DNA from: Rufibacter sp. DG15C
GTDB lineage: Bacteria; Bacteroidota; Bacteroidia; Cytophagales; Hymenobacteraceae
Direction: 5' to 3'
Assembly: GCF_001577755.1 (NCBI RefSeq)
Contig: NZ_CP010776.1
Location: forward strand, 3,844,001-3,908,000
Length of the DNA: 64,000 nucleotides
Below the pieces are notes generated by a model. The model did no database searches, was not told where the DNA came from, and was given only the letters and a program-made list of their open reading frames with translations. A program made the translations under genes and the position numbers. Shown here piece by piece: positions 50,215-55,374 of the stretch (the first letter of the stretch is position 1; each line of letters starts with the position of its first letter).

Positions 50215-51468
50215 TTACAAGGCCACTGCCAACTCTGGCGTGGCTTTTTTCTTTTCTTGAGCGGCAATGTAGTGCAAAGAGGTGGCCATCACAATTGAGC
50301 CTGTTTCCCTGAGTTTCTCCTGGTATTTGACCAGCGCACCCAGCGTCACGTTCCCTACCAGGATGATGGACTCTCCCTGCCGTTGAAGAAGTTTTATTTG
50401 AGTTAGGCCGAGTGCTCCCAACAAGGCGACATTCTCGGTGCGTACATACACCTCTAATTCAAAATCAGTATCTAACCCGGCTTCTTCCAACTGCTCATGC
50501 AGTTTCTTGTACTGATATTGATAGCTCTTCAAAAGACCCGTGATGTCTGACAATACCGCCGCACCTGTTGGGTGACCGCCTGCTCCTCTTCCTTTGAACA
50601 GCTGTGCGCCTGCGTAGGCCCCTTCCACCACAATGCCGTTGAATTCCTGCTCCACCGTGTACAGGTCGTCTATGGGGTTGACCAGGGTGGGCAACACCAA
50701 GGGCACCAGATTGCCTTCCTCGGTGTTATGAAGGGAAGCCACCAATTTAATGACCGCCCCTCGGCGTTTGGCAAACTCCCAGTCTGCTTTGGCCAAGGCA
50801 TTGATGCCGATAAACGGCACTTCTTCCGGCGCGAGGACTCTACCGAAGGCATGGGCCGCCAAAATGCAGAGTTTGTGCCGGGAGTCAGCTCCGCTCACGT
50901 CTAACCAAGGGTCTAATTCAGCAAAGCCTTTGTCCTTGGCCTCCTGCAAGGCCTCTGAATAGGGTTTCTGCTCCTTGAAAATTTGACTGAGGATGTAATT
51001 AGAAGACCCGTTCAAGATTCCGGAGATTCTGCTCACCGGCTCCTGACCAAAGTATTCTTCCACGGTTCTCACAATGGGAATGCCCCCGGCCACTGCCGCC
51101 TCATACAATAGCACGCCGCCATATTCGGCCTGCAACTGCAACAGCTTCTCCAGGTGATGGGCCACCATTTTCTTGTTGGCGGTCACCACCCGCTTGCCTT
51201 GGCGAAGCGCCGAGGTGACAATGTCATAGGCGTCATGGGCGTCACTGATGGCTTCCACCAGAATGTCCAAGCTGTCGTCATTGAGAAGCTCCTGGGCATC
51301 AAAGGTGAAACAGTCGGCAGGCAATGAGCGCTCTTTCAAAGGGTCCTTCACACAGATGTTCACTATTTGCGCCGGAAAACCGGGCTGCCGTTGCAGAATA
51401 TCGTAGAGCCCCTGCCCTACGCACCCAAACCCAAACAAGCCTATCTTTAAAATACGGTTGGTATCCAT
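50215..51468 (-). CDS. hom: Homoserine dehydrogenase
   Basis: A 417-residue NAD(P)-dependent enzyme that reduces aspartate semialdehyde to homoserine. The Rossmann loop is GLFGFGCVGQGLYD near 10-23. VVTANKKMVAHH, AAVAGGIPIVRTV, GILNGSSNYILSQI and the GADSRHKLCILAAHAFG stretch are all family marks. The C-terminal region (about 330-417, ELEVYVRTENVALLG, ESIILVGN) is ACT-like, suggesting feedback control. It overlaps the upstream metX by 22 nt and is the third gene of the metY-metX-hom operon; the operon thus makes homoserine and uses it for methionine. Confidence 0.95.
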   Translation of the reverse strand: MDTNRILKIGLFGFGCVGQGLYDILQRQPGFPAQIVNICVKDPLKERSLPADCFTFDAQELLNDDSLDILVEAISDAHDAYDIVTSALRQGKRVVTANKKMVAHHLEKLLQLQAEYGGVLLYEAAVAGGIPIVRTVEEYFGQEPVSRISGILNGSSNYILSQIFKEQKPYSEALQEAKDKGFAELDPWLDVSGADSRHKLCILAAHAFGRVLAPEEVPFIGINALAKADWEFAKRRGAVIKLVASLHNTEEGNLVPLVLPTLVNPIDDLYTVEQEFNGIVVEGAYAGAQLFKGRGAGGHPTGAAVLSDITGLLKSYQYQYKKLHEQLEEAGLDTDFELEVYVRTENVALLGALGLTQIKLLQRQGESIILVGNVTLGALVKYQEKLRETGSIVMATSLHYIAAQEKKKATPELAVAL

Positions 51469-52502
51469 GTCTTTCTCTGCGGTTTTTGCTCCAGAAAGGA
51501 GGTGATAATTTGTTCTAGCTGATCGGTTTCCAGCAGAAATCCGTCGTGGCCTAGTTCAGACTGTATGGTTTGAAAAGTAGCATTTGGGATGTAGCGGGCC
51601 ACAAACTTCTGCTCCTTCAAGGGAAACAAGGCATCTGAATCTACGCCCACCACTAAGGTCTGCGCCTGCACTTGGTTCAAGGCTTCTTCCACGCTGCCTC
51701 TTCCCCGGCCTACATTATGCGAGTCTAGCATTTTAGTAAGGTGCCAATACGTTAAGGCGTTGAACCGCTGGGCAAGCTTATCTCCATGGTAGCGCTGGTA
51801 AGAAGCGGCTCTGTACTTTTCCAAAGACTTTGAGCTTTGCTCGCGCTGTCCCAGATGATACGCCTGATAGCTTCTATATGACAGCATGGCCATGGCCCGC
51901 GCCGTCTGCAAACCCTGCGCGCCGGCGCCGTCTGTGTTCAACTGCCAGGTCACGTCCAGCTCTATGGCCATCCGCTGGGTCTCGTTCAGGGCAATGGCGT
52001 ACGGTGACTGTACCGCGTTGGAAGCCACTAACACCAAGCGCTGAATTACCTCCGGGTATGCAATCGCCCATTCCAAGGCCTGCTGTCCGCCCAAAGAACC
52101 GCCTATCAGCACTTGGATGGTGTCCAATTCCAGGTGCTCGCGCAGTAGATGGAAGGCTTTCACCACATCCCGGTTGGTGAGCGCTGGGAACTGGTGATAA
52201 TAAGGCCGACCTGTTTCTGGGTTCACGGACAAGGGTCCCGTAGAACCGTAGCAACCGCCCAAGGTGTTGGCGCAGACAATGAAATGTTTGGCTGGGTCAA
52301 AGGTTTTGCCTTCGCCGAAGAGGCCGCCCCACCAATCTTTTACAAATGTGTTGCCACTGAAGGCATGGCATACCCAGATGACGTTGTCACGGGACTCATT
52401 GAGCGTGCCCCAGGTCGTATAGAAAAGTTGGAAGCCGGGCAGATGCCGCCCAGACTCCAACTCAAAGGGTTCCTTGTATTCAAAAACTCTTCCTTTCAAC
52501 AT
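51447..52502 (-). CDS. metX: Homoserine O-acetyltransferase
   Basis: A 351-residue alpha/beta-hydrolase enzyme that acetylates homoserine for direct sulfhydrylation. The nucleophile elbow GGSLGGQQALEW contains S136. VCHAFSGNTFVKDWW and NTLGGCYGSTGPLSVNP are typical of MetX. The catalytic Asp (VVGVDSDALFP) and His (LGHDGFLLE) are near the C-terminus. The gene lies 7 nt after metY and overlaps hom by 22 nt. The acetyl (not succinyl) assignment is by family resemblance. Confidence 0.94.
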   Translation of the reverse strand: MLKGRVFEYKEPFELESGRHLPGFQLFYTTWGTLNESRDNVIWVCHAFSGNTFVKDWWGGLFGEGKTFDPAKHFIVCANTLGGCYGSTGPLSVNPETGRPYYHQFPALTNRDVVKAFHLLREHLELDTIQVLIGGSLGGQQALEWAIAYPEVIQRLVLVASNAVQSPYAIALNETQRMAIELDVTWQLNTDGAGAQGLQTARAMAMLSYRSYQAYHLGQREQSSKSLEKYRAASYQRYHGDKLAQRFNALTYWHLTKMLDSHNVGRGRGSVEEALNQVQAQTLVVGVDSDALFPLKEQKFVARYIPNATFQTIQSELGHDGFLLETDQLEQIITSFLEQKPQRKTWIPTVF

Positions 52503-52509
52503 GGTTCTC

Positions 52510-53853
<1,344 letters not shown>

Positions 53854-53900
53854 TTACAATTTAAAATTGAACAAAAACAAGACAGGAGGCTAAATATGGA

Positions 53901-53933
53901 CGCGCAGAACCAGTTGGCTACGCGCGGTTAGCC
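53901..53933 (-). promoter_or_regulatory. Two mutually exclusive hairpins between the poly-Cys ORF and metY
   Basis: As RNA on the minus strand, GGCTA pairs with TAGCC (53916-53933), while CGCGC pairs with GCGCG (53901-53926). The two pairings cross, so only one can form. A third segment, GGTTA at 53984-53988 inside the upstream ORF just before its cysteine codons, is complementary to the TAACC of the first hairpin. The arrangement could work as an attenuator switch; this is inference and no T-run terminator is evident. Confidence 0.4.
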
Positions 53934-53961
53934 CTGAAAACAAGAAGGAGAAAAAGCTGGA

Positions 53962-54111
53962 TTAGCGGCAACAACAGCAACAATAACCCAGCACGGGCAT
54001 TCGCTGCTGATTAGGCAAGAAAGTGAGGATTGCAGACACAAGGGTCTGGGTGGACACTTGAAAGTGCTCTGCTGTGATTTGACGAATGGTTTGGAATTGC
54101 TTTTCCATCAT
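53962..54111 (-). CDS. Upstream ORF ending in five consecutive cysteine codons (candidate leader peptide)
   Basis: A 49-codon frame beginning ATGATG 8 nt after the SAM-I riboswitch and ending 120 nt before metY. The encoded peptide starts MMEKQFQTIRQI and ends VLGYCCCCCR with codons TGT TGC TGT TGT TGC. An internal ATG at 54000 would give the 12-residue peptide MPVLGYCCCCCR. I know no protein family for it. Consecutive codons for one amino acid at the end of a short frame before a biosynthetic operon are the mark of leader-peptide attenuation; poly-Cys leader frames with such a role are known in mycobacteria. Here a cysteine-sensing role would suit, since metY uses sulfide as an alternative sulfur route. 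Whether it is translated is not shown. Confidence 0.65.
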   Translation of the reverse strand: MMEKQFQTIRQITAEHFQVSTQTLVSAILTFLPNQQRMPVLGYCCCCCR

Positions 54112-54118
54112 TGTATCA

Positions 54119-54227
54119 ATTTATATTCCCCAGCGCACTATGCGGTTGGGTTCAGGAATTAGCACCTTACACCAAGGTAGGTTGCTAGAGCTTCACAGAG
54201 CCTGTCTCTCCACTCTTCTTTATAAAT
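54119..54227 (-). ncRNA. SAM-I (S-box) riboswitch upstream of metY
   Basis: On the minus strand the conserved SAM-I core is readable in order: AAGAAGAGTGGAGAGAC, then AGGCTC-TGTGAA-GCTCTAGCAACC, then CCTTGGTGTAAGGTGCTAATTCC. The closing P1 stem is ATTTATA (54221-54227) with TATAAAT (54119-54125). SAM binding is expected to lower expression of the metY-metX-hom operon. A P1-linked terminator is not obvious; the upstream ORF begins 8 nt after P1, so the switch may act on that ORF's translation. Confidence 0.93.
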
Positions 54228-54256
54228 CAACTACCGGAATAATTGACTTGATGACG

Positions 54257-54287
54257 CAAATGTATAGACGAATTGGACAAAAACAAA
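54257..54287 (-). promoter_or_regulatory. Promoter of the met operon
   Basis: On the minus strand TTTG (54284-54287) and TACATTTG (54257-54264) are separated by exactly 19 nt, a full match to the Bacteroidota housekeeping promoter. Transcription should begin near 54250, just before the riboswitch. Confidence 0.75.
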
Positions 54288-54438: not shown

Positions 54439-55374
54439 ATGCAAGCGCTCAAAGAAACCAATTTCCATTTTCCGCAGCAGACCGGCTTCTACCGGGGCAA
54501 GGTGCGGGACGTCTATTACTTTCAAGACAAGCTGGCCCTGGTGGCCACCGACCGCATCTCTGCCTTTGACGTGGTTCTGCCCAGAGCCATTCCTTATAAA
54601 GGACAGGTCTTAAATCAGATTGCCGCCAAATTCCTGGAAGCTACCAAAGACGTAGTGCCCAACTGGGTCATCAGTCATCCGGCACCCAACGTGACCATTG
54701 GCAAGCAATGTGAGACTTATAAAGTGGAGATGGTAATACGCGGGTATCTGGCCGGCCATGCCTGGCGCGAGTACAGCGCCGGCAAGCGTACGGTGTGCGG
54801 CGTTTCTATGCCCGAAGGCTTGAAAGAGAACGACAGACTGCCTGCGCCCATCATCACCCCCACTACCAAAGCTGCCGAAGGCCACGACGAGGACATCTCT
54901 AGAGAGGAAATCATCCGCCAAGGCATAGTCTCTGAAGAAGAGTACCAACAATTGGAAGTTTACACCAGGGCGCTATTTCAAAAAGGCACCGAGTTGGCGG
55001 CTGAGCGAGGCTTGATTTTGGTGGACACTAAATATGAGTTCGGGAAGGCAGACGGGGTCATCTATGTGATAGATGAAATACACACCCCAGATTCTTCAAG
55101 GTTCTTTTACTCAGAGGGTTACCAAGAGAGACAAGATGCCAACCAGCCGCAACGGCAACTTTCTAAAGAATTTGTACGTCAATGGCTGATAGAACAAGGT
55201 TTCCAAGGGAAGGACGGCCAGCAGGTGCCCGAGATGACCGATGAGAAGGTGTCCGAAATATCCCAGCGTTACATTGAATTATACGAGCAAGTCCTAGGCG
55301 AAACGTTCTCCCCCCAGCCCTACGCCCAGGACCTGGAAGCTTTGCAGAAGAGCATTGCCGCCAACATTTTTTAA
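54439..55374 (+). CDS. purC: Phosphoribosylaminoimidazole-succinocarboxamide synthase
   Basis: A 311-residue purine-synthesis enzyme joining aspartate to CAIR with [46 protein letters not shown] (about 18-60) is the family signature, with GKVRD in the ATP site. [34 protein letters not shown] and [13 protein letters not shown] segments follow. The protein is longer than E. coli PurC (237) and has the C-terminal extension common in Bacteroidota and eukaryotes. It has its own promoter and is followed by the STAS gene. Confidence 0.96.

Follow-up and report, generated by a model that had tools for sequence, protein, structure and literature searches.

In the trp and his attenuators the regulatory codons lie near the end of the leader peptide with a structured RNA behind them, and in the tandem riboswitch logic gates two inputs act through a single leader. 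Short open reading frames (ORFs) that carry Cys runs close to their stop were described for actinobacterial cysteine genes (Seliverstov 2005, PMC1262725), where no conserved terminator was found and Rho was suggested to act on the cys leaders. Mycobacterial poly-Cys short ORFs, leaderless according to the title of the study, were reported by Canestrari (2020, as cited in PMC9094748 and PMC13236596), and tandem Cys codons in the uORFC-8-2 motif before cysS of Rhodobacterales were proposed to act by ribosome-mediated attenuation (PMC8632094). Riboswitches with associated upstream ORFs (uORFs) are known from Mycobacterium tuberculosis, namely the B12 riboswitches of metE and ppe2 (PMC11260477) and the pe20 Mbox, for whose uORF Rho-dependent termination was shown (PMC12810186). 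Within the Bacteroidota, leader peptides were proposed in general terms before amino-acid biosynthesis operons of Flavobacterium psychrophilum (PMC9723704), and short ORFs were found in 5' UTRs of B. thetaiotaomicron (PMC7366714); the available text of these two studies, which concern the same phylum as ours, names neither a cysteine run nor a pairing with SAM-I.

The metY-metX-hom leader described here resembles the mycobacterial and actinobacterial poly-Cys leaders in that a short ORF carries a Cys run close to its stop and no terminator signal is found. Unlike the leaderless mycobacterial ORFs, it carries a full SAM-I aptamer 5' of the ORF, precedes metY, has Met codons mixed in and belongs to the Bacteroidota; it is not a member of that group, albeit it may work alike. 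With uORFC-8-2 it has in common a uORF with consecutive Cys codons, but that motif, as far as its available description goes, places its two Cys codons within a stem and has a U run as expected of an intrinsic terminator, with no riboswitch mentioned. As in the M. tuberculosis switches, a riboswitch stands beside a uORF that would be translated and affect the next gene, whereas the accessible accounts of the M. tuberculosis uORFs neither describe them as a second metabolite sensor nor name a regulatory codon run. The candidate regulatory codons lie near the peptide end with structured RNA 3' of them, as in the trp and his attenuators; unlike in those attenuators, no general intrinsic-terminator signal is present. 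The two inputs recall the tandem riboswitch gates, except that the second would be read by the ribosome instead of an aptamer. Cysteine leader peptides and riboswitch-associated uORFs are known separately, and our literature search, in which few subscription papers were covered, returned no report of SAM-I combined with a Cys-tailed uORF, nor of Cys-tailed uORFs in Bacteroidota.

The locus lies in a 64,000-nt stretch of the Rufibacter sp. DG15C genome, referred to as the window (Table 1). The SAM-I core that the original prediction had read on the minus strand is, by its covariance-model score, a full-length SAM-I riboswitch (gathering cut-off 44.4 bits, E 7.5e-15), and no other Rfam family was listed between 53500 and 54500 at E<=1, a weaker hit from the same clan having been set aside. 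A sigma-70 scan listed no minus-strand promoter at 54257..54287, where we take the sequence to resemble a Bacteroidota-type promoter consensus. The gene purC (54439-55374, plus strand) is divergent from the metY leader, and since about 210 nt separate it from the aptamer, both promoters must fit there. The metX product scored 355.5 against TIGR01392, under the cut-off of 500. Elsewhere in the genome we found CysK (TIGR01139, 392.8 bits, cut-off 350.95) and a cystathionine beta-synthase-like protein that falls under its family cut-off, scored on the matched domain only; no PF01507 match appeared at E<=1e-20.

Table 1. Features of the metY leader and its genes (window coordinates unless a contig is given)
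Feature	Position	Strand	Basis or remark
Putative promoter, TTTG-N19-TACATTTG	54257..54287	-	28 nt 5' of aptamer; read off the sequence
SAM-I riboswitch aptamer	54118..54228	-	RF00162, 71.9 bits, model positions 1-108
Putative uORF (leader peptide), 49 codons and stop, MMEKQFQTIRQITAEHFQVSTQTLVSAILTFLPNQQRMPVLGYCCCCCR-stop	53962..54111	-	Position, tail and frame kept in relatives
Met codon of 'RM' 5' of the Cys run	53998..54000	-	Tail Met-enriched across leaders
Five Cys codons in a row (TGT TGC TGT TGT TGC), then CGC, TAA	53968..53982	-	Sequence
GC-rich hairpin, then U-rich stretch	53888..53934	-	Begins 27 nt past uORF stop; predicted fold
Small AT-rich hairpin GTTCAATTTTAAATTGTAAC directly 5' of metY	53853..53872	-	Genus alignment conservation and RNAalifold consensus
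metY, O-acetylhomoserine sulfhydrylase family	52510..53841	-	TIGR01326, 686.2 bits, cut-off 495.1
metX, homoserine O-acyltransferase	51447..52502	-	NF001209, 335.6 bits, cut-off 331
hom, homoserine dehydrogenase	50215..51468	-	NF004976, 309.7 bits, cut-off 205
uORF before cysteine desulfurase (L356)	G000:C1 ~1823206-1823256, outside the window		L357-L371 in other genomes

The 49-codon frame was found exactly as originally predicted, ending in GYCCCCCR and a stop located 120 nt before the metY ATG at 53841. The ATGATG is likewise present just past the P1 stem of the aptamer, but its first ATG lies 6 nt from the P1 end in the Rfam model and not at the predicted 8 nt. The uORF probably starts at the second ATG (codon 2, at 54108), because the close relatives line up with that codon and the resulting 9-nt spacing is the commonest P1-ATG distance (42 of the 98 distinct peptides introduced below). 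The genome contains 54 matches to TGYx4; none of the frames with at least four consecutive Cys around the other matches has a run of at least five within two codons of its stop, and the second of the two SAM-I elements found in the genome, which precedes metH, is without such a frame. A single protein search with the 49-residue peptide gave no candidate sharing three five-residue words with it.

The original prediction had proposed to look for the Cys run in the metY leaders of relatives and to compare synonymous with nonsynonymous change, and both comparisons speak for the anatomy that it described. A six-frame peptide search of 59 genomes produced matches in 37 of them at a permissive threshold (E<=10), most of them weak. 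Among the 30 loci listed, six in addition to the window's own (L002, L003, L008, L015, L016 and L020) are short frames located 116-128 nt before metY, in which the middle has drifted or is unrelated and the ending, CCCC(C)R or CCCCC, is kept. CCCC(C)R stands directly before the stop in 11 of the 14 genus leaders listed, and Rufibacter immobilis (L033) has the very same leader peptide as L301, from a genome of the window's genus.

A MetY scan of GTDB genomes yielded 583 confirmed loci, and the best 80 of these were searched with a covariance model built from 23 SAM-I sequences. A SAM-I element was present 5' of metY in 70 of these best 80 (more than 1 kb upstream in L092 and L100). The ten loci without a match include two, L096 and L099, with less than 140 nt of upstream sequence, and the seven compared with all Rfam families (all but L096, L099 and L102) showed no riboswitch. 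One locus, L046, has a frame ending in AMRMCCCC 97 nt before metY and no SAM-I by our own covariance model or Rfam. An ATG follows P1 within 0-20 nt in 66 of the 70 SAM-I leaders, and 52 of the 66 ORFs, counted from the first P1-adjacent ATG, have at least three Cys among the last ten codons, where dinucleotide shuffles (300 for each of the 66 leaders) predict 0.41 such ORFs; this agrees with the initial view that the run is hard to explain by chance. In L044, L045 and L060 a Cys tail is present from another ATG, adding three. The SAM-I metY leaders without a Cys tail include those of Algoriphagus (six), Cyclobacterium (two), Belliella and Persicobacter (one each) and a few MAGs; a P1-adjacent ATG is nevertheless present in 13 of the tail-less leaders.

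A second sample, partly overlapping the first, consisted of the best 30 MetY loci each from 61 genomes of the family of genome G132 and 60 genomes of the window's family. Here SAM-I was found in 54 of the 60 loci, and 49 of these 54 leaders have the tail (at least three Cys in the last 12 codons), with five lacking it. The two samples together provided 103 Cys-tailed peptides, 98 of them distinct; this set is restricted to leaders that have at least three Cys among their final 12 codons and a uORF-metY gap below 400 nt (which removes L092 and L100 of the first sample), so that its Cys figures, unlike its Met figures, are subject to selection. The P1-ATG spacing is 5-11 nt in 92 of the 98, which places the uORF start in reach of the ligand-dependent helix. 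Overall, as judged by sequence comparison, the Cys-tailed frame is a real and strongly conserved element, maintained far past the close relatives.

The composition of the uORF differs sharply between its tail and its body. The final 15 residues in the 52 Cys-selected leaders contain 39.5% Cys against 1.4% in the body, and Met, which was not selected for, reaches 9.4% against 0.7%. The enrichment of Met codons in the tail is a feature absent from the original prediction. The Cys codons of these 52 tails are both TGT (179) and TGC (129). Over the 98 distinct, Cys-selected peptides, Cys is the final codon before the stop in 60 and the longest Cys run varies from one to nine, with no fixed pattern beyond richness in Cys and Met; Met occurs within the last 20 residues of 87. 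In 90 leaders with a run of at least three TGY codons, the longest run is in frame with a P1-adjacent ATG in 85. Pairwise comparison of 13 leaders of the genus (the window's own left out) gave 87 synonymous and 79 nonsynonymous changes in the tail, two register-shifted tails (L307 and L308) included, against 62 and 294 in the unconserved body; the sequences are related and the pairs not independent. The tail/body contrast, the frame and the codon usage are what selection on the Cys (and Met) codons would leave, in contrast to selection for the fold of a protein or for a motif in the RNA. On this evidence we take it as very probable that the frame encodes a translated leader peptide whose Cys (perhaps also Met) codons are regulatory.

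To what extent the tail is a property of metY leaders can be seen from the other SAM-I leaders of the class. Of 149 genomes of the class, 107 have RF00162. The class sample of 112 SAM-I loci covered the 30 loci returned with this search and 80 further places among those listed (L224 runs into the end of its contig), together with both loci of the window's genome. Neither a Cys-rich frame nor a (TGY)3 run was found in the 65 leaders of metH or in the 13 leaders of cystathionine-synthase-like genes, whereas among the 16 metY loci a Cys frame is present in 12 (and missing from four) and a (TGY)3 run in 11; two of the 18 metY calls (L226 and L247, 36-37% identity) had been set aside as paralogues. 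An ATG 3-15 nt past P1 follows the same division, being present in 14 of these 16 metY leaders, 66 of the 70 from the best 80 of 583 and all 54 of the second sample (best 30 per family), against 8 of 65 metH and 2 of 13 cystathionine-synthase-like leaders. The original proposal of a two-sensor anatomy is upheld by this distribution. Cys-rich frames beyond short incidental ones occur after SAM-I in four further loci: L243 (see below), L260, where SAM-I is followed by a small ORF and then metX, L232 and L248. Cys-tailed SAM-I leaders are concentrated, among those examined, at metY and a handful of further sulfur genes. The Cys-containing frames of L232 and L248, both from one genome of the window's family, stand before a TonB-receptor-like gene in one case and a gene without an assigned name in the other, as judged by eye. 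In another family, L221 has SAM-I before a cysteine-desulfurase-like gene (also named by eye) and a short frame containing TCNCYC.

We consider it very likely that the frame is a translated, Cys-responsive leader peptide, and the three readings that dispense with this have to be measured against the same data. Selection of the TGY repeat as RNA, through pairing or protein binding and with the peptide incidental, could draw on the complementarity between tail and downstream region, which is weak overall and stronger in some loci; it is at odds with the 85 of 90 runs that keep the frame of the P1-adjacent ATG, mostly at the stop, and with the free choice between TGT and TGC and the interspersed Met codons, and the frame, the adjacency to the stop and the shuffles led us to reject it as very improbable. 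A conserved short ORF beside a riboswitch could, in principle, look alike if it encoded a small functional protein without a regulatory role, e.g. a metal- or sulfur-binding peptide. Here the body is unconserved, with nonsynonymous changes exceeding synonymous ones, the single protein search gave no homologue and the place before metY is constant, all of which leaves this reading marginally less credible still. That the riboswitch alone matters and the uORF is a chance frame or a relic would fit the SAM-I lineages without a Cys tail, yet it conflicts with the observed 52 of 66 tails (best 80 of 583) against the shuffle expectation, and with the absence of the tail from the 65 metH and 13 cystathionine-synthase-like leaders; chance, too, was rejected on the reading frame, the position at the stop and the shuffle comparison, and we give this reading hardly any credence.

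The Cys-tailed device is also found before other genes. In one genus, four of the 30 PF01507 loci examined (L329, L330, L336 and L338), which we take to be cysH-type because of their match to PF01507 and the length of the protein, are preceded by a frame that closes with six or seven Cys (a single F interrupts them in L338, and a Y precedes them in L336). It lies 36-100 nt from the assigned start of the gene, which in L336 may be placed too early. No SAM-I was found at these four loci, where the Cys device stands alone; their frames have a Met just 5' of the long Cys run. In L243, on the other hand, SAM-I is followed by a frame that ends in ACCCCQKFAACCCKC and is separated by about 75 nt from a cysH-type gene, with its only ATG about 110 nt past P1 and thus not adjoining it. 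A short Cys uORF of a different build precedes the NifS/IscS-type cysteine desulfurase in 16 of 16 genomes of the window's genus and in none of the 29 loci examined outside it. It has about 10-16 codons, ends in or just past CCC, CCCC or CCCCC (usually MNR(T/I)CFTCCCCKK or KN, then stop) and stops about 4-13 nt before the desulfurase; the short distance to the gene start suggests reinitiation coupling, and with it an opposite response to cysteine.

The region between the uORF and metY is more stable than its shuffles (mean z -1.36, SE 0.22, n=56), and pairing of the tail with downstream sequence is weakly above shuffles (mean z -0.58, SE 0.16, n=56). A long GC-rich hairpin was seen in six of seven genus leaders when the folds were read by eye, whereas the RNAalifold consensus over the same seven is weak, and the terminator scan did not list the hairpin at 53888..53934. 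In the Pedobacter clade, the one clade for which a covarying hairpin is known, two hairpins follow the uORF stop (10 sequences). The second shows compensatory changes in five of seven pairs with all cells paired and a covariation score reached by none of 500 shuffles, although further pair types, one of the five measures used, are not above shuffles; the first helix is invariant and hence carries no covariation information. Intrinsic terminators were predicted in 8 of 96 leaders against 6 of 96 shuffles (one per leader), and a classical transcription attenuator was rejected for this lack of excess. The accessibility of the metY start, predicted for three ribosome states, is unchanged with a ribosome parked on the Cys codons (0.618 against 0.634, n=96), and a translational attenuator operating by unmasking of the start found no support in this model-based test. 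The 40 nt past the uORF stop contain more C than G in 81 of 93 leaders, with a C/G ratio of 1.61, compared with 1.64 in the uORF body, 1.50 in metY and 0.79 past P1 in 16 metH leaders, a composition that would suit Rho yet does not set this stretch apart from the uORF body or metY.

We propose that the leader works as a two-stage sulfur sensor, in which a riboswitch stage and a ribosome stage would act in series. P1 is the ligand-dependent helix of SAM-I, and translation in Bacteroidota starts largely without Shine-Dalgarno pairing, unstructured AU-rich leaders being favored. With the 3' strand of P1 at the ribosome entry site and these habits of initiation, SAM should silence the uORF: in the SAM-bound state P1 would form some 6-10 nt before the uORF start and could cover it together with its AU-rich initiation region, and at low SAM P1 would open and the uORF would be translated. 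A natural variant, L285, has no uORF and a metY start 10 nt past P1, as expected if P1 gates whichever ORF comes next. When Cys-tRNA (possibly also Met-tRNA) is short, the ribosome would stall on the Cys/Met codons near the uORF stop and keep metY-metX-hom on; with the peptide finished, it would leave, the RNA behind it would fold or Rho would act, and metY expression would fall. The outcome would be an AND logic, with high metY expression at simultaneously low SAM and cysteine, where the original prediction had the two inputs combine as OR. We infer the gating by P1, the stalling at low Cys-tRNA, the 'on' sign and the final step, the last being most likely Rho- or structure-dependent, with Rho as the first guess because it was proposed for the actinobacterial cys leaders and shown for the Mbox uORF. 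The argument for the 'on' sign draws on the tails before cysH, a gene on the way to cysteine, and on the different build of the desulfurase uORF. The full series mechanism with this sign has, in our estimate, a somewhat better than even chance of being correct.

The same two sensors could also be wired with the opposite sign, such that stalling on Cys codons lowers metY and scarce sulfide goes to cysteine synthase first; metY would then be made when SAM is low and cysteine sufficient. MetY and CysK would compete for sulfide, as expected from established pathway knowledge, the genome has CysK, and nothing found in the anatomy of the leader forces the 'on' sign. However, a similar tail stands before cysH-type genes, for which repression of a step towards cysteine at low cysteine makes little sense, and the cysteine-consuming desulfurase of the window's genus has a differently built uORF with its stop near the start codon. 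These two points are arguments, not tests, and they leave the opposite sign as a rather unlikely option. Sensing might, alternatively, be accomplished by the nascent chain, with the tail acting as an arrest sequence that responds near termination to an effector such as free cysteine, sulfide, a metal or the redox state instead of to Cys-tRNA charging. The position of the Cys residues at the very end beside the stop, with 60 of 98 Cys-selected peptides ending in Cys, would suit such a device, but arrest peptides usually need specific upstream residues, and here the tails share no more than their richness in Cys and Met, with a longest run of anything from one to nine. We regard arrest of this kind as improbable.

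In its most general form, the proposal of a riboswitch stage followed by a ribosome stage reads that SAM-I directly gates the translation of a leader peptide reporting on the supply of Met and Cys, and that about 300 nt in front of the sulfide-assimilating gene thereby integrate SAM, methionine and cysteine, with metH and cystathionine-synthase-like genes left to SAM control alone, and that this arrangement is widespread in the Bacteroidota; we advance it tentatively, at slightly below even chances. The short ORF is conserved solely in its last codons and was missed by the protein search. Natural controls are at hand in the SAM-I genera without a Cys tail, the cysH-type leaders with a tail and without SAM-I, and L285 as a natural uORF deletion. 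If the proposal is true, many Bacteroidota metY leaders, in Rufibacter, Pontibacter, Hymenobacter, Chryseolinea, Pedobacter, Mucilaginibacter, Saprospiraceae MAGs and others, would be two-input gates with a riboswitch and a ribosome in series. It would also suggest why the genes of sulfide assimilation have a Cys tail and the examined metH and cystathionine-synthase-like leaders do not, and would add a Cys-responsive leader in another phylum.
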